Shown here piece after piece: positions 1,815 through 13,393 of a stretch of DNA of 30,976 nucleotides. Every line of letters starts with the position of its first letter. The first letter of the stretch is position 1. The translations under genes were made by a program, and so were the position numbers. The notes beneath the pieces were generated by a model that saw nothing but the letters and a program-made list of their open reading frames with translations, was not told the origin of the DNA and did not search any database. This stretch comes from a virus: positions 1 to 30,976 of the IMG/VR virus record IMGVR_UViG_3300032093_000571, one strand, 5' to 3'.

Positions 1815-1876
1815 TTAGTAACCTCCTGCTTTGCAATATAAAGCAATAAATTTACATGGTGTAGCAATAAATGCTG

Positions 1877-2040
1877 CAATAGCTTTAAGCTTTGTAATAA
1901 TCCAAAAGTAAACCAATAACGCAAACAAGAACAAGTAAAATCCAAGCAACGCCTTCAGCAGAAATTTTCATCATTTTTCCTTTTCACATAACCCTACGTT
2001 CCAGCGGATTCGCTACGCTCACCGCTTAACTCTGCGTTAG
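1877..2040. repeat. 164-bp direct repeat, copy 1
   Basis: Bases 1877-2040 match 2950-3113 at a constant offset of 1073 with only two mismatches that I can find (1882/2955 and 1993/3066). The repeat contains the 29-residue membrane ORF, its ribosome-binding site, and almost all of an attC-like element. Its left edge does not coincide with an attC core site, so it is not a simple whole-cassette duplication. Confidence 0.95.
1885..1974 (-). CDS. 29-residue single-pass membrane peptide, copy 1
   Basis: MMKISAEGVAWILLVLVCVI then nine residues ending LLLDYYKA. One hydrophobic segment (about residues 9-24), good Shine-Dalgarno (AAAGGAAAA) just before ATGATG, stop TAA. An identical ORF recurs at 2958-3047 within the duplicated segment. 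Two start codons are adjacent (1974 and 1971). The alternative +1 frame also encodes a hydrophobic stretch but lacks an ATG. Function unknown; small single-pass peptides in phage early regions often target host membrane proteins, which here is inference only. Confidence 0.55.
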   Translation of the reverse strand: MMKISAEGVAWILLVLVCVIGLLLDYYKA

Positions 2041-2042
2041 GA
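1986..2042 (+). repeat. attC-like site 1
   Basis: Plus strand: left core ACATAAC (1986-1992), inner arm GTTCCAGCGG, central CGCTACGCTC, inner right arm CCGCTTAAC, spacer TCTGC, right core GTTAGGA (2036-2042). This is the R''-L''-L'-R' layout of integron attC sites: the right core fits GTTRRRY closely and the left inner arm carries one extra base relative to the right arm, as in known attC sites. The left core is a partial fit to RYYYAAC. The minus-strand 62-residue ORF reads through this element and stops at 1994-1996. Confidence 0.82.
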
Positions 2043-2182
2043 ACTATTACGCCGTGTCTTTCGCATACAGCACCACGTTCGTCATCCAGTTCAAGAATGC
2101 ACCATTTGTCAGTGCCTTCACATTTTGGGCACGACCAAATACCACTTTTTTCTTTCATTTCACTATATGTAGGCCAAGCCAT
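1994..2182 (-). CDS. 62-residue zinc-ribbon-like protein ending in attC
   Basis: MAWPTYSEMKEKSGIWSCPK then a CPKC...C...C series (C18, C21 and two later cysteines plus a His) suggesting a small metal-binding knuckle. The final 14 residues (NAELSGERSESAGT) are encoded by attC site 1 and are identical to the end of the 95-residue ORF at 3067-3354. A GAGG sequence lies ten bases before the start. The start lies in a CCATGG palindrome shared with the plus-strand ORF that begins at 2181, so both genes cannot be initiated from overlapping sites without interference. Function unknown. Confidence 0.55.
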   Translation of the reverse strand: MAWPTYSEMKEKSGIWSCPKCEGTDKWCILELDDERGAVCERHGVIVPNAELSGERSESAGT

Positions 2183-2366
2183 GGTTATTAATCCTCAAAA
2201 ATGTATTGCTTGTAAAAAACCAATTCAAAGCAAAAACGGCATAGAAGGAAACGGAAATCCTTATTACGTTACATGCAAAGAATGTGGTGCAAAAAACGAA
2301 ATAATTAAAACATCGGGCGGTAATGGTGAACCATTAAATTTTTCTGTAGTTAAATTATTTCCCTAA
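2181..2366 (+). CDS. Plus-strand 61-residue zinc-ribbon cassette protein
   Basis: The only convincing plus-strand ORF of the window: MVINPQKCIACKKPIQSKNG, later YYVTCKECGAKNEIIK. Two CxxC pairs (C8/C11 and C32/C35 approximately) around a short beta-like linker are typical of a rubredoxin-type zinc ribbon. It is A/T-rich compared with neighbours. Its TAA stop (2364-2366) lies inside the left core CCCTAAC of attC site 2, the expected arrangement for an integron cassette ORF in its normal orientation. The ribosome-binding site is weak and no plus promoter is obvious. A longer frame from 2097 exists but is probably not used. Confidence 0.6.
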   Translation: MVINPQKCIACKKPIQSKNGIEGNGNPYYVTCKECGAKNEIIKTSGGNGEPLNFSVVKLFP

Positions 2367-2414
2367 CCCATCGTTCCAGCGGACGCTCCGCACCGCTGAA
2401 CTTATCCGTTAGGA
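2361..2414 (+). repeat. attC-like site 2
   Basis: Left core CCCTAAC (2361-2367), inner arm GTTCCAGCGG, short centre ACGCTCCGCA, right arm CCGCTGAAC, right core GTTAGGA (2408-2414). The shortest and most divergent centre of the four sites while the arms stay complementary, which fits selection on hairpin shape rather than on primary sequence. Its right arm (GAACTTATCCGTTAG) is shared with site 3. Confidence 0.8.
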
Positions 2415-2638
2415 CTATTGCTTAATGAATCTGCCCATTTCACTTCCACAAGAAGCGGTTTCTCTCCTACGTTTGCGTACAAGTACCAATGATCCCCATG
2501 GCGAAGTTCATTGCTATCTAGTGTGGTGTGACCGATTACATGAAATTCACGAAACGGAAATCGAACTCGCTCAGATGGTGGCGTTATCAAAATACCTAAA
2601 CGACGAAGGTCTTCAATTGCCTTTAACTGTTCATCCAT
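2402..2638 (-). CDS. Unknown 78-residue cassette protein
   Basis: Starts MDEQLKAIEDLRRLGILITP; a beta-rich second half (FHVIGHTTLDSNE, DHWYLYANVGEKPLLVEVKW) suggests a small alpha/beta fold. AGGAAG ahead of the ATG supports this start over one at 2698. The TAA stop and last residues come from the right core of attC site 2. A plus-strand ORF of 71 residues (2425-2640) lies opposite and starts close to the cassette boundary. I prefer the minus frame because of its ribosome-binding site and protein-like composition, but the plus frame cannot be excluded. Confidence 0.55.
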   Translation of the reverse strand: MDEQLKAIEDLRRLGILITPPSERVRFPFREFHVIGHTTLDSNELRHGDHWYLYANVGEKPLLVEVKWADSLSNSPNG

Positions 2639-2661
2639 AATTCTTCCTTTTTCATTAAAAA

Positions 2662-2719
2662 ACCTAACACTACGTTCCTGCGGATTCGCTACGCTCACCG
2701 CTGAACTTATCCGTTAGTC
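2662..2719 (+). repeat. attC-like site 3
   Basis: Left core ACCTAAC (2662-2668) is a perfect RYYYAAC; inner arm GTTCCTGCGG, centre CGCTACGCTC, right arm CCGCTGAAC, right core GTTAGTC (2713-2719). The left half resembles sites 1 and 4, the right half site 2. The minus-strand 75-residue ORF ends in its right core. Confidence 0.8.
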
Positions 2720-2941
2720 GCCAAAGCACCCGGGCTTGCCGCACCACAGCCGTTCAATTACCGGCTTGATGCCGCCGCTCCAATCTTGTTCGCCTGCGAC
2801 GGTCACGGCCTTGTATGCCAACACCGCGCCGCCGACCCAGATGCACAGGATTAGCACGAGCACGCCGCCAATAAACCACGTCACAAAACGTTGCATGCGA
2901 TTGAATCGCTTGTCGAAGTCGCTGTTCCAGCTTTTCATCAT
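2714..2941 (-). CDS. Unknown 75-residue single-pass membrane protein
   Basis: MMKSWNSDFDKRFNRMQRFV, then a transmembrane segment (about residues 20-45, WFIGGVLVLILCIWVGGAVL) and a tail ending WCGKPGCFGD with two cysteines. The basic N-terminus suggests N-in orientation, leaving the cysteine tail in the periplasm. GAAGGAAA directly before ATGATG gives the start; a longer TTG-initiated frame from 3022 overprints the 29-residue ORF and is less likely. The stop TAA is donated by the right core of attC site 3. Function unknown. Confidence 0.6.
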   Translation of the reverse strand: MMKSWNSDFDKRFNRMQRFVTWFIGGVLVLILCIWVGGAVLAYKAVTVAGEQDWSGGIKPVIERLWCGKPGCFGD

Positions 2942-2949
2942 TTTTCCTT

Positions 2950-3113
2950 CAATAACTTTAAGCTTTGTAATAATCCAAAAGTAAACCAATAACGCAAACA
3001 AGAACAAGTAAAATCCAAGCAACGCCTTCAGCAGAAATTTTCATCATTTTTCCTTTTCACATAACACTACGTTCCAGCGGATTCGCTACGCTCACCGCTT
3101 AACTCTGCGTTAG
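2950..3113. repeat. 164-bp direct repeat, copy 2
   Basis: Second copy of 1877-2040, two mismatches. It includes the second copy of the 29-residue membrane ORF and almost all of attC site 4. Copy 2 sits between the 75-residue membrane gene and the 95-residue gene. Confidence 0.95.
2958..3047 (-). CDS. 29-residue single-pass membrane peptide, copy 2
   Basis: Identical in sequence to the ORF at 1885-1974, with the same Shine-Dalgarno (AAAGGAAAA). The next gene's ribosome-binding site follows 17 bases after the stop. Preservation of both the frame and the translation signals in both copies fits a functional peptide, but the copies are so recent that this is weak evidence. Confidence 0.55.
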   Translation of the reverse strand: MMKISAEGVAWILLVLVCVIGLLLDYYKA

Positions 3114-3115
3114 CC
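3059..3115 (+). repeat. attC-like site 4
   Basis: Left core ACATAAC (3059-3065), inner arm GTTCCAGCGG, centre CGCTACGCTC, right arm CCGCTTAAC, right core GTTAGCC (3109-3115). It is identical to site 1 apart from one base in the left spacer and the outermost right bases, since both lie in the 164-bp duplication. No fifth site is visible to the right. Confidence 0.82.
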
Positions 3116-3354
3116 GTCAGGGTGAAATTGACCGTGTTGAACCACTCTTCGGGGAATTCGCGCAAGTACAGCGTCGTTGAAAATCCGCTAATCTCCGTTT
3201 CCTCAACCGTGAATTCGGCTCCCACTTTTAGACCTAGCCGCCCGAGCCTGTCCTTGTCCACCTGTTCTCCGTTGTTCGGGAACGCAAACACCACCTTCGT
3301 TCCTTCCGGTGCGTCAATCGGCATGCACTTCATTTCTTCATAGGTTTTTACCAT
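3067..3354 (-). CDS. Unknown 95-residue protein ending in attC
   Basis: MVKTYEEMKCMPIDAPEGTK; mixed alpha/beta composition, no membrane segment or motif recognised. A strong Shine-Dalgarno (AAAGGAGAG) precedes the ATG. The last 14 residues (NAELSGERSESAGT) are encoded by attC site 4 and match the end of the 62-residue ORF at site 1, so the native C-terminus was probably replaced when the site arrived next to the gene. Function unknown. Confidence 0.65.
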   Translation of the reverse strand: MVKTYEEMKCMPIDAPEGTKVVFAFPNNGEQVDKDRLGRLGLKVGAEFTVEETEISGFSTTLYLREFPEEWFNTVNFTLTANAELSGERSESAGT

Positions 3355-4195: not shown

Positions 4196-4953
4196 CTGTG
4201 ATATTTCCCTTCTAAAACCTTAGCAAAGTTATTTGGCCTCATCAGCCATTCAAAATCAGCCCGGAACGGAACTTTCCCATTCCTGCCATCAGCGCTACCA
4301 ATCAAAAACTTAGATTCAGCCACTTTCAAAAAATACGATTCAAAAAACTCAAGACCTTCGCTTTCCGTTTCCCAACTATCAGCCTGGCAGACTTCCCGCC
4401 ATCGGCTTGCAGCATAAGCCTGTCGGGTTTTTGTCATTACCGCCACTTGTGGGCAGGTTGGCAGCGCTTTGTGGTACAGATCAACTAACTTTTCAACAGG
4501 GCATCTTAAAGGTGCATCGCGTGAGCGATCACTAAGATACGTAGTATCTTTATCTTTTATATTGGTTATTGGTTTATGGTTAGTGGTTAGGTGGAGGTTC
4601 GTGTCTTGTTCGTTCACGGTTCGTTCACGGTTCGTTCGTCTTTTTTCTTCGCGCTCTTTTGCTATTCTTGCGTTAGTGCTTGAATTTTCGTGATATTTAT
4701 CAATTTCATCCTGTATTCTTGACTGAAAATACACACCGTTGTTTTCTGTAAAGAATTTTTCTAAAACAAACCGGACTGCCTCTTTTTCTTGGTCAGTTCT
4801 AGCCCAACACCAGTCATAAGCCTGTTCGATTGTCGGGAATTGTTCACGGTCATAGCACGCATCCATCAGAAGCGTGTACGCTCCGTGCTCAAGCATGGAA
4901 AGCCTTCCAGCTTTTTTGTGGTAATCCCCGATGTTTCTTTTGAAGTAATGCAT
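4192..4953 (-). CDS. DUF1376 (YdaU-like) phage replication protein
   Basis: 253 residues. The first about 90 (HYFKRNIGDYHKKAGRLSML, EHGAYTLLMDACYDRE) match the DUF1376/YdaU N-terminal domain of phage replisome-organiser or helicase-loader proteins. A charged, low-complexity linker follows (about residues 95-140), then a C-terminal helical region containing FFESYFLKVAESKFL. Such proteins bind origin DNA or recruit the host helicase; the exact role here is inference. The linker DNA contains a short tandem repeat of GTTCGTTCACG. Its ribosome-binding site lies in the 3' arm of the leader hairpin at 4960-5048. Confidence 0.75.
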   Translation of the reverse strand: MHYFKRNIGDYHKKAGRLSMLEHGAYTLLMDACYDREQFPTIEQAYDWCWARTDQEKEAVRFVLEKFFTENNGVYFQSRIQDEIDKYHENSSTNARIAKEREEKRRTNRERTVNEQDTNLHLTTNHKPITNIKDKDTTYLSDRSRDAPLRCPVEKLVDLYHKALPTCPQVAVMTKTRQAYAASRWREVCQADSWETESEGLEFFESYFLKVAESKFLIGSADGRNGKVPFRADFEWLMRPNNFAKVLEGKYHR

Positions 4954-4959
4954 ACAATC

Positions 4960-5048
4960 CTCTTTGGTGGACGATCCCGTGTGAGAATTACCGGGAGCAT
5001 TCGACTCGGTGGAGTCATTGAGGCGGCATCGAGACCGTCCCCAAAGAG
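4960..5048 (-). promoter_or_regulatory. Structured leader sequestering RBS of replication gene
   Basis: An 89-base segment without a convincing ORF. Its ends form a long stem: CTCTTTGG pairs with CCAAAGAG, then after a bulged base five further pairs (GGACG with CGTCC). Inside are a perfect hairpin GACTC-GGTG-GAGTC (5003-5016 on plus) and a second hairpin CCCG...CGGG, giving a three-way junction. In the minus-strand mRNA the 3' arm of the outer stem contains AAAGAGG, the Shine-Dalgarno of the DUF1376 gene, so folding would block its translation. It could be a cis-regulatory RNA or protein-binding site, or DNA structure linked to an origin. I do not match it to a known riboswitch. Confidence 0.6.
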
Positions 5049-5087
5049 AACTGTATCAATGCTCCATTTACGCTTCTCACGGCGCAA

Positions 5088-5390
5088 TTAGATTTTATTC
5101 GTTTGCTTCAAAAATGCAAGCCCCTGCTTAGTAATCGCCCACACTCGTGCGGGTCGTCCTTTTTTGCTCAGCCTTGTATCAGTCGTAACTCTGACATAAT
5201 TTGTCATCTCTGGCAGTCGTCTGCTTATCTGGTACTTGTCTAACCAGCAATAATCTGCTATTTCGTCAGCCGTTTTGTTTTTCATGTCGGCTAATGCCAG
5301 CAAAATAGCTCGATAATGACGAGGCGCAAAGTTTGCCGCATTCTCGCCAGCCAGCTTACTTGTTGCCGGGTCTGTCTTTCTTGCTCTCAT
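5088..5390 (-). CDS. Winged-helix DNA-binding protein
   Basis: 100 residues: MRARKTDPATSKLAGENAAN, helix, then a helix-turn-helix (TADEIADYCWLDKYQISRRL) and a wing (VRVTTDTRLSKKGRPARVWA) ending in TKQGLAFLK. This resembles the small MarR/winged-helix phage proteins found beside replication genes. AGGAG is six bases before the ATG at 5390; the ATG at 5396 abuts the Shine-Dalgarno with no spacing and is less likely. It may regulate transcription or act in replication initiation. Confidence 0.75.
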   Translation of the reverse strand: MRARKTDPATSKLAGENAANFAPRHYRAILLALADMKNKTADEIADYCWLDKYQISRRLPEMTNYVRVTTDTRLSKKGRPARVWAITKQGLAFLKQTNKI

Positions 5391-11599: not shown

Positions 11600-13393
11600 T
11601 TATCGAAGTTCGCGCCAAACAGCAGTATTTGCAGTTCCAGTAGTTACAGATACTGAATAGGACGCGCCGGGAGGCACGATAAAAAAGAACGGCATTGCTG
11701 GCGCGCCCGAAGCAGCTTGAAAATTTGAAAGAACAGCACCGTTCACAATTGGAGCAATAATTGCACTGCCTGTGTTGCTTGAATACCCTGAGACGGCTAT
11801 TGGTTTTCCTGTCGTGTTGTAGTAGGTAACTCCATGCGCTCGACTACCAACTACATCCTGCCATGTCTGTCCATACCCAAGACTAGACATAGCCGTTATA
11901 GCTTGCCCGCCAGCCCCCTGAATCAGCGACGGCGCAGTAACCCATGTTCCAGCCGTTGCTTGCGTACTGCGAATAATGCCAATGACGCGATAAGCAAGGT
12001 TTGTACGTGCTGTTGTGCTATACACCACTGTCGCACTATCTGCTGCCCCCGCGCCGCCTTCAGCAGTGGTGGATATAAGATTCGTTTCAGACAGGTCAGT
12101 GCCGCCAGCAAGGTTGACCGTTGCCAGTTCAAGCGTTCCAGCGTTATTCATCGCCAGCACCGCAATGTCAGACTGAACAGCGTTGACAGTGCCGAGCGTA
12201 GAACCACTGCTAATGACCAAGTTTGCCGGAGTGCCGGATACTCTAGTGACTGTACCGCTCCCCAACGTCGTCGAGCGAAAGTCAAGCGTTAAAGCCGAAG
12301 CGCTAATTGTTAAAGCGTTACCAGCGACCGATGCGGAAACCGGCTGGATTTGTGGTTGTGGCGTTAATAATGCTTCCAGTGCTTGTCCACCGATACCCTG
12401 AATCAAACTGGGTGCAGTAGCCCACGTTCCCGCTGTTGCTTGAGTTGATCGCACAATACCTATGACACGATAGGAAAGATTAGATCGTGCCGTGGTAGAG
12501 TAAACAACAGTTGCGCTATCTGCCGCCCCCGCTCCACCTTCTGCGGTAGTGCTGACAAGATTTATTTCAGATAGGTCAGTGCCGCCAGCCAGATTCACTG
12601 CCGCAAGTTCAATAGTTCCAGCGTTGTTTATTGCAAGAACCACAATATCTGACTGTACGCCGTTCGTTGTGCCAAGAGTAGAACCGCTACTGATTACTAA
12701 GTTTGCAGGTGTTCCGCACACTCTCGTTACTGCACCACTTCCGAGCGTAGTAGAACGGAAGTCGAGTGACAAATATGATGCGCTAATTGTTAGCGCATTT
12801 CCCGCCACCGAAGCGGAAATAGGCTGGATTTGTGATACAGACAACAGACTTCCATCTGCTTTTTGATACCCGGCAACCCTCCAGCCATTAGCCGGGCTTC
12901 CGCTCGGCACTACAATAGCGCTATCCCCTGCTGCCGTGGTGATGTTAGCCGCGCCTGGCAGTATCAGCGTAGTAGCGTTATGAGTCAGCGTAAGCGCACC
13001 GTCAAAACGAACATATCGCGGCCCGTTATAGTTCGTGCCAAAGCTCGTGATCGTCGTCGTGCCGGTTATGTTCAAAAATACCGAATTTTGCGCGCCTATG
13101 TCCGTAGTGGTCGCGCTTGCCAAGTTTTGGGGCGTTCCTTGGCTGAATAATTGTTCCCATCGCAAAGAATCGCCGGTGGCAGACCCGGCACCTAGCCCGG
13201 TCAGCTTGTTTCCGGTCATCGGCAGGTTCCCCGTGACCGGCGTTTGGCCGTCAGACGAAAGCGACTGCGTAAGCGCTGCCGCTATGTCATTGGCCAGGTT
13301 TTGCCAATCTGACGCAGTAGCGGAAACCCCGTTGATAGCAGGGTTCCAGCTGTTCACTGGTAGACTGTATACTCCGCTTCCGTTACGTGACAT
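11600..13393 (-). CDS. Tail fibre with internal 160-residue tandem duplication
   Basis: 597 residues. Residues 1-90 (SDGQTPVTGNLPMTGNKLTG, GDSLRWEQLF) form the typical virion-attachment end of podovirus tail fibres. Residues about 188-338 and 348-498 are a near-identical repeat at an exact 160-residue spacing, both opening QIQP(I/V)SASVAGNALTIS and closing with GTW.TAPSLIQG.GGQA. The last about 100 residues (with YYNTTGKPIAVSGYSS) are unique and are the likely receptor-binding tip. The repeat DNA is diverged at synonymous sites, so the duplication is not recent. Adsorption function is inferred from architecture and position. Confidence 0.85.
   Translation of the reverse strand: MSRNGSGVYSLPVNSWNPAINGVSATASDWQNLANDIAAALTQSLSSDGQTPVTGNLPMTGNKLTGLGAGSATGDSLRWEQLFSQGTPQNLASATTTDIGAQNSVFLNITGTTTITSFGTNYNGPRYVRFDGALTLTHNATTLILPGAANITTAAGDSAIVVPSGSPANGWRVAGYQKADGSLLSVSQIQPISASVAGNALTISASYLSLDFRSTTLGSGAVTRVCGTPANLVISSGSTLGTTNGVQSDIVVLAINNAGTIELAAVNLAGGTDLSEINLVSTTAEGGAGAADSATVVYSTTARSNLSYRVIGIVRSTQATAGTWATAPSLIQGIGGQALEALLTPQPQIQPVSASVAGNALTISASALTLDFRSTTLGSGTVTRVSGTPANLVISSGSTLGTVNAVQSDIAVLAMNNAGTLELATVNLAGGTDLSETNLISTTAEGGAGAADSATVVYSTTARTNLAYRVIGIIRSTQATAGTWVTAPSLIQGAGGQAITAMSSLGYGQTWQDVVGSRAHGVTYYNTTGKPIAVSGYSSNTGSAIIAPIVNGAVLSNFQAASGAPAMPFFFIVPPGASYSVSVTTGTANTAVWRELR
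11900..12352 (-). repeat. Tail-fibre repeat unit 2
   Basis: Encodes residues about 348-498 of the fibre. Period to unit 1 is exactly 480 bp. Protein identity is high, differing mostly at conservative positions; the DNA differs at many third codon positions. Confidence 0.9.
12380..12832 (-). repeat. Tail-fibre repeat unit 1
   Basis: Encodes residues about 188-338 of the fibre. It carries one cysteine (TRVCGTP) where unit 2 has serine. Separated from unit 2 by a nine-residue linker rich in Pro/Gln. Confidence 0.9.

Follow-up and report, generated by a model that had tools for sequence, protein, structure and literature searches.

The phage sequence analysed here probably carries a single integron cassette of 372 bp that holds two genes and is bidirectional, its genes running head to head from one CATG; we put the probability of this reading at about three in four. 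The window, by which we mean the whole stretch of DNA that was analysed, is a virus record of 30,976 bases with its large genes on the minus strand. Integron cassettes are usually described as having one promoterless gene in one direction. The initial annotation had noticed a minus ORF (1994-2182) and a plus ORF (2181-2366) starting inside one palindrome at 2179-2184, and we confirmed these coordinates and the CCATGG. It had also described both ORFs as coding small CxxC-type proteins, in agreement with the translated sequences of 62 aa (CPKC...CERH) and 61 aa (CIAC...CKEC). The features of the cassette and its neighbours are given below, where L011 denotes the copy in a second phage and L123 and L124 denote the two bacterial copies.

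1983..2042, plus strand: attC1, 52.4 bits
1994..2182, minus strand: minus ORF, the reverse gene, 62 aa, CPKC...CERH; same direction as the phage operon, end inside attC1
2037..2408, plus strand: the cassette, from the expected cut in the attC1 R' box to that in attC2, 372 bp
2179..2184, no strand: CCATGG, the start common to both genes; the 2-nt overlap is also present in L011, L123 and L124
2181..2366, plus strand: plus ORF, the attC-forward gene, 61 aa, CIAC...CKEC, CxxC-x20-CxxC; stop in the attC2 R'' box
2358..2414, plus strand: attC2, the cassette's own attC, 56.2 bits
2659..2719, plus strand: attC3, neighbouring cassette, 53.7 bits
3056..3115, plus strand: attC4, neighbouring cassette, 52.3 bits

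Structure and direction of the cassette

A covariance model of attC, built from 43 attC sites out of 61 bacterial stretches matching an attC pattern, found four sites in the window, all on the plus strand and scoring 52.3-56.2 bits. The sole further match of the model in the window up to E 1 lies on the minus strand and has 12.4 bits. The R' boxes read GTTAGGAA at 2036-2043 (attC1) and GTTAGGAC at 2408-2415 (attC2), and the cassette ends given as 2037..2408 rest on a cut by the integrase at G^TT within the R' box, which we take to be its position. The starts of the two ORFs overlap by 2 nt, and the plus frame is open further upstream, to an ATG at 2097 (89 aa). The plus ORF ends in the left core of attC2, as had been claimed for it: its stop codon, 2364-2366, is within the R'' box. 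Two marks of an integron cassette are therefore present in the window, namely an attC site at the 3′-end of the forward gene (attC2, 56.2 bits, on the strand of the plus gene) and a forward gene that ends at or just before attC. On the opposite side, the minus gene reaches the R' box of the preceding attC, where CCTAAC codes Pro-Asn, and attC1 codes about the last 16 residues of the minus ORF.

A further mark, an array beside an integron integrase gene, is found for the homologous pair of bacterial genome G228 (described below), but not for the window, in which the integron integrase family TIGR02249 has no match. With four attC sites and no integrase gene nearby, the window corresponds to a CALIN, for which at least two attC sites are asked, and the record may be a fragment. 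Rfam gave nothing in the window at gathering scores.

Folding of attC2 as single-strand DNA gave z of -3.4 for the minus strand and -3.7 for the plus strand; the energy folds of the attC sites in the window do not settle the strand. In bacterial genomes with the same attC pattern, a crude measure, the strand of the longest ORF before the attC, agreed with the attC strand at 59 of 66 sites; in the viral set, duplicate contigs included, it gave a mixed 19 of 36. At integrase loci, all five attC matches, which come from four of nine loci, point away from the integrase gene; the other five loci have no attC match. An arrangement in which the attC sites point the other way, and the minus genes are ordinary cassette genes, is rejected on the evidence of the model, by the 59 of 66 sites and by the 5/5 matches. 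In related phages, the model matched 42 times in 19 of 20 loci, a count in which three matches duplicate others, their sites being covered by two excerpts of a single contig (L021/L104, L033/L106), and the attC strand was opposite to the operon in 42 of 42. The attC sites point in the plus direction, and this, backed by the direction of bacterial ORFs and by the integrase loci, supports the view of the plus ORF as a cassette ORF in normal orientation. Its proposed antisense position to the phage operon is likewise supported, as these sites run against the operon.

Conservation of the pair in other genomes

The head-to-head pair is known in four copies only: the window, the second phage and two bacterial genomes. 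In L011, as in the window, a relative of the minus gene is flanked by two attC sites and stands back to back with the gene of a 61-aa CxxC-CxxC protein, and the plus proteins of the two phages match at 33% over 49 residues (E 1e-5 for that one comparison). The bacterial set was the order of genome G010 (locus L097, uncultured Methylococcaceae bacterium); NCBI taxonomy places Methylococcaceae within Methylococcales, an order of methane-oxidisers. A profile of the two phage plus proteins matched in 2 of 301 genomes of this order, with E 4.9e-23 and 7.3e-18, and both matches stand back to back with a minus-type gene, the starts again overlapping by 2 nt. The plus-type homologues are L011:9778-9963, L123:1501-1686 and L124:533-724, each of them adjoined by a minus-type partner. 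Every one of the four copies has its plus-type gene on the attC strand. When larger alignments were used, 2 of 311 genomes of the order contained the plus type; the minus type was found in these two genomes, together with one weak match within a 788-aa frame, which is regarded as spurious. Except for this weak match, the two families were found only together in the 311 genomes. The window copy of the plus protein is the most diverged, with 14-17 of 56-59 aligned residues identical to the others.

The attC evidence beside the bacterial copies is real but uneven and partial. Beside the L123 pair, one model match follows the plus gene (19.1 bits, E 0.0049), and the folds of attC sites at this locus are weak (z -0.9 and -1.6). 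In L124, the model matches at the end of the minus gene (31.8 bits) and further off at 2-93 (23.8 bits), and a stem directly after the plus gene is seen only as a 60% repeat and a fold z of -2.4. The G228 copy, one of the two bacterial copies, occupies 533-899 of contig C203; 3.4 kb from the pair, at 4283-5227, this contig also carries an integron integrase gene (494.6 bits against a cut-off of 265, full-length and with no internal stop). Both model-found attC sites on this contig point away from the integrase gene.

The geometry of the shared start is, by itself, weak evidence and not beyond chance. Nine of the 99 CATG sites in the window, among them the shared start, open two frames that are each 55 codons or longer, and 100 dinucleotide shuffles gave a mean of 1.08 and a maximum of 5 such sites. 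These double-frame sites are frequent in the window because real genes carry open antisense frames. That the geometry is mechanically so common (9/99) is the argument for taking the plus ORF as a chance antisense frame, which we regard as hardly credible in view of the profile matches in two bacterial genomes (E 4.9e-23 and 7.3e-18) and of the third-position excess and low dN of the plus type. Although the geometry is common, a chance antisense ORF is rejected because of conservation. What exceeds chance is that the pair has been conserved in three further genomes.

Wider searches added little to these four copies. For the plus type, one single-protein viral scan gave two weak matches only, L014 and L015, and a second gave L011's own contig only; two profile scans, in which matches were confirmed against the diverged window copy, gave none, and another gave L011's contig only. 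Elsewhere in phages, there were weak plus-type matches only, at E 0.8 or worse, a further search gave none up to E 1, and plasmids gave none. In 399 genomes of another order, two weak matches lie in 266- and 137-aa frames and were not accepted as homologues; among 321 genomes of the class there was a single weak match, in an 832-aa frame, and 46 other genomes with the attC pattern gave none. A search for the minus type in phages gave none up to E 1. A terminase search for the host in 291 genomes of the order found distant relatives only (28-34% identity), in 3 of the 291.

Selection and coding signal

Values of dN/dS were obtained by the method of Nei-Gojobori. For the plus gene, they are 0.26/2.08 (L011-L123), 0.25/1.04 (L123-L124) and 0.35/0.79 (L011-L124), and for the minus gene 0.11/1.74 (L123-L124) and 0.28/1.55 (L011-L123), dS being not computable for L011-L124. 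The three pairs with the window copy gave 0.75/0.57, 0.88/2.51 and 0.99/0.87 for the plus gene, and 0.41/0.42 (attC-coded tail included), 0.70/1.65 and 0.63/2.03 for the minus gene. In the informative comparisons dN is lower than dS for both genes, and constraint is clear among the L011, L123 and L124 copies; for the plus gene, dN/dS of the pairs with the window copy is uninformative. The window plus protein retains both CxxC pairs and ten columns that are invariant among the four copies. Differences between the two phage plus ORFs alone, a single pair, number 35, 24 and 28 by codon position and are uninformative. Scored by phage codon usage, the plus frame has +0.138 and the minus frame +0.132 per codon, and the five other frames of each region are negative.

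Both genes look real, in particular because the same back-to-back pair recurs in the second phage and in two bacterial genomes. The initial annotation was to be abandoned if one of the two frames had neither homologues nor codon constraint across related sequences; such signs were sought for both frames and are present for both families.

Minus-type genes in phages and the origin of the junction

Matches to the minus protein were found at 10 viral loci, at two of which they cover the attC-coded tail alone, and 10 aligned minus-type sequences show no variation at the CPxC and CxxH positions. The family also occurs as solitary genes in phage operons, without attC. In five distinct contexts, the minus gene continues past CTAACG (once CTAACT) into TAGAAAATAAAGGAG or a close variant, and in four copies (window, L102, L008 and L105) it continues into an attC. 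Comparison of L009 with the window shows 45 identical bases up to the junction, the sequences parting directly after CTAACG, and L008 and L110 have this identical-then-divergent pattern at CTAACG also for another gene. The break after CTAACG is presumably within two bases of the position at which the integron integrase cuts. Either cassettes were inserted at the box in phage genes, or the stand-alone copies were derived from cassette copies; the sequences are consistent with both.

Solitary minus genes could suggest that the pair arose separately in the window and in L011, each time by insertions that brought a minus gene of phage origin next to an unrelated plus gene from a cassette. The minus type of the window is solitary in L004 and L006 and that of L011 in L021; moreover, AGGATTAAT before the start is common to the window and L004, and a similar A-rich leader is common to L011 and L021. 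However, two bacterial genomes carry this pair with its 2-nt overlap, and L011, L123 and L124 resemble each other closely over the 27 bases that precede the minus start. Separate insertion seems already largely refuted by these likenesses, and we consider it very improbable.

Predicted proteins

Both proteins probably bind zinc. The two CxxC pairs of a zinc ribbon are present in the plus type of the window and of two of the three other copies, L124 being without one Cys. In Pfam and NCBIfam no family scored above cut-off for either protein, and PHROGs and PADLOC gave weak matches only. The plus type is like TIGR04104 (cxxc_20_cxxc putative zinc finger) in cysteine spacing or weak profile similarity, and membership was rejected at 14.0 (window) and 17.4 (L123) bits against a curated cut-off of 45. 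A likeness of the same kind exists between the minus type and Trm112p-like PF03966, to which the bacterial copies score 18.8 and 19.7 bits against a curated cut-off of 22, so that membership was again rejected; no PF03966 match is listed for the window minus copy. Profile search of the sequences of solved structures returned C2H2 zinc fingers (best 1mey_C, E 2.6e-5), and these matches are taken as cysteine spacing. The model of the L123 plus protein has a mean pLDDT of 83 and strands only; its best matches among solved structures are RNA polymerase II chains, at E 0.5 and worse, and are not significant. An earlier model of the window plus copy, made with a two-row alignment, was poor (pLDDT 66).

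Modules of the toxin-antitoxin type are known cassette cargo, and the strict co-occurrence of the two families in the 311 genomes would suit such a module, or another in which two proteins act on each other. This seems improbable to us: no toxin, antitoxin or defence family was matched at a meaningful score in NCBIfam, Pfam or PADLOC, where one minus protein has only a weak YgiT-finger match (E 0.026, below cut-off) and PADLOC gave only one weak partial match (E 0.032), and the minus gene occurs alone in phages.

Expression of the two genes

Overlap of the starts leaves no room for a promoter between the genes, so that transcription would come from outside, and it also places the ribosome-binding site of each gene within the first codons of the other. 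The Shine-Dalgarno sequence of the minus gene is plain in 4/4 copies (GAGGAT in the window, AAAGGATT in the others); for the plus gene, both bacterial copies have GAAAGG, L011 has a shortened form and the window has a weak one. No promoter-like site was found on the plus strand near the plus gene. We infer that the forward gene would be transcribed from upstream of the array, and that transcripts of the reverse gene would come from the other side and pass through attC2. In the phage, the operon opposes the attC direction and would enter through attC2; the minus gene should therefore be made, by read-through, and the plus gene would be silent unless antisense transcription occurs.

The plus ORF of the phage may then be a passenger, that is, a cassette gene by origin which is unexpressed and drifting, and which is kept only for its place between attC sites. 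We hold this to be quite possible, while leaning slightly away from it. Its Shine-Dalgarno sequence is weak, the window copy is the most diverged of the four, the plus strand is without a promoter-like site nearby and the ORF is antisense to the operon. However, the frame is open across 61 codons, both CxxC pairs and the ten invariant columns are retained, and its codon-usage score of +0.138 per codon is close to the +0.132 of the minus gene, while every other frame scores below zero.

A cassette with one gene per strand and a shared start would free expression from the direction of transcription. As a speculation that we rate as rather unlikely, the 370-base unit might give one zinc-binding protein per transcription direction, the complementary mRNAs excluding each other. 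If this is true, the cassette would pay off in integrons and phages alike, in either orientation of insertion or transcription, and the reverse gene would be the one used by a phage whose operon runs against the attC direction.

Relation to known systems

CALINs, clusters of attC sites without an integrase, have already been published in phages, several of them usable by IntI1 (Qi et al. 2023, PMC9892861). According to the available part of that report, phage CALINs are like the window in having several attC sites, no integrase gene and cassettes with small genes; unlike them, the window has all attC sites against the operon, and its conserved divergent pair is also present in bacteria. Promoter activity has been described on both strands of gene-less cassettes (PMC11014356). 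To judge from the accessible part of this source, those cassettes are like the present one in being transcribed from either strand, whereas the present cassette has a gene on both strands. A two-strand cassette would let antisense transcription of the array, reported there for gene-less cassettes, yield protein.

A head-to-head two-gene cassette was not found described in the titles and abstract openings of the literature searched, which does not imply its absence from print. Measured against the available parts of these sources, what is new here would be the conserved cassette with two divergent genes from one start; attC clusters in phages were already known. The pair links an environmental phage family to integrons of a methane-oxidiser order, and this link is testable.

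Further observations on the phage locus

The contigs of this phage family differ from one another in what lies between the MTWQPIETAPKDG gene and the MKDYSEDV gene (window 1983-3116; L005-L013, L018, L021, L036 and L100-L110). All attC sites in this variable locus are against the operon, and the genes in operon direction end on an R' box or switch after CTAACG to TAGAAAATAAAGGAG. The MDEQLKAI gene (window 2402-2698) follows an attC, and the gene ahead of that attC is one of four, differing between the window, L110, L102 and L018/L012, as though this unit had been shuffled. Between attC sites and on the attC strand, antisense ORFs of 112, 139 and 143 aa are present at L107:3364-3702, L107:3763-4182 and L100:64-495, and they are possibly ordinary forward cassette genes.

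Window positions 1874-2040 and 2947-3113 form a direct repeat with 164 of 167 bases identical, each copy holding a short minus-strand ORF and an attC site, which makes it a duplicated part of a cassette. The ORFs at 1357-1647 and 1442-1684 lie on the same strand in different frames with some 200 bases in common, and several related contigs have open relatives of both; either a start is wrong or this is a true overlapping gene pair. Another direct repeat, of 300 bases and 73% identical, links 11901-12200 with 12381-12680 in a 597-aa ORF at 11600-13393.
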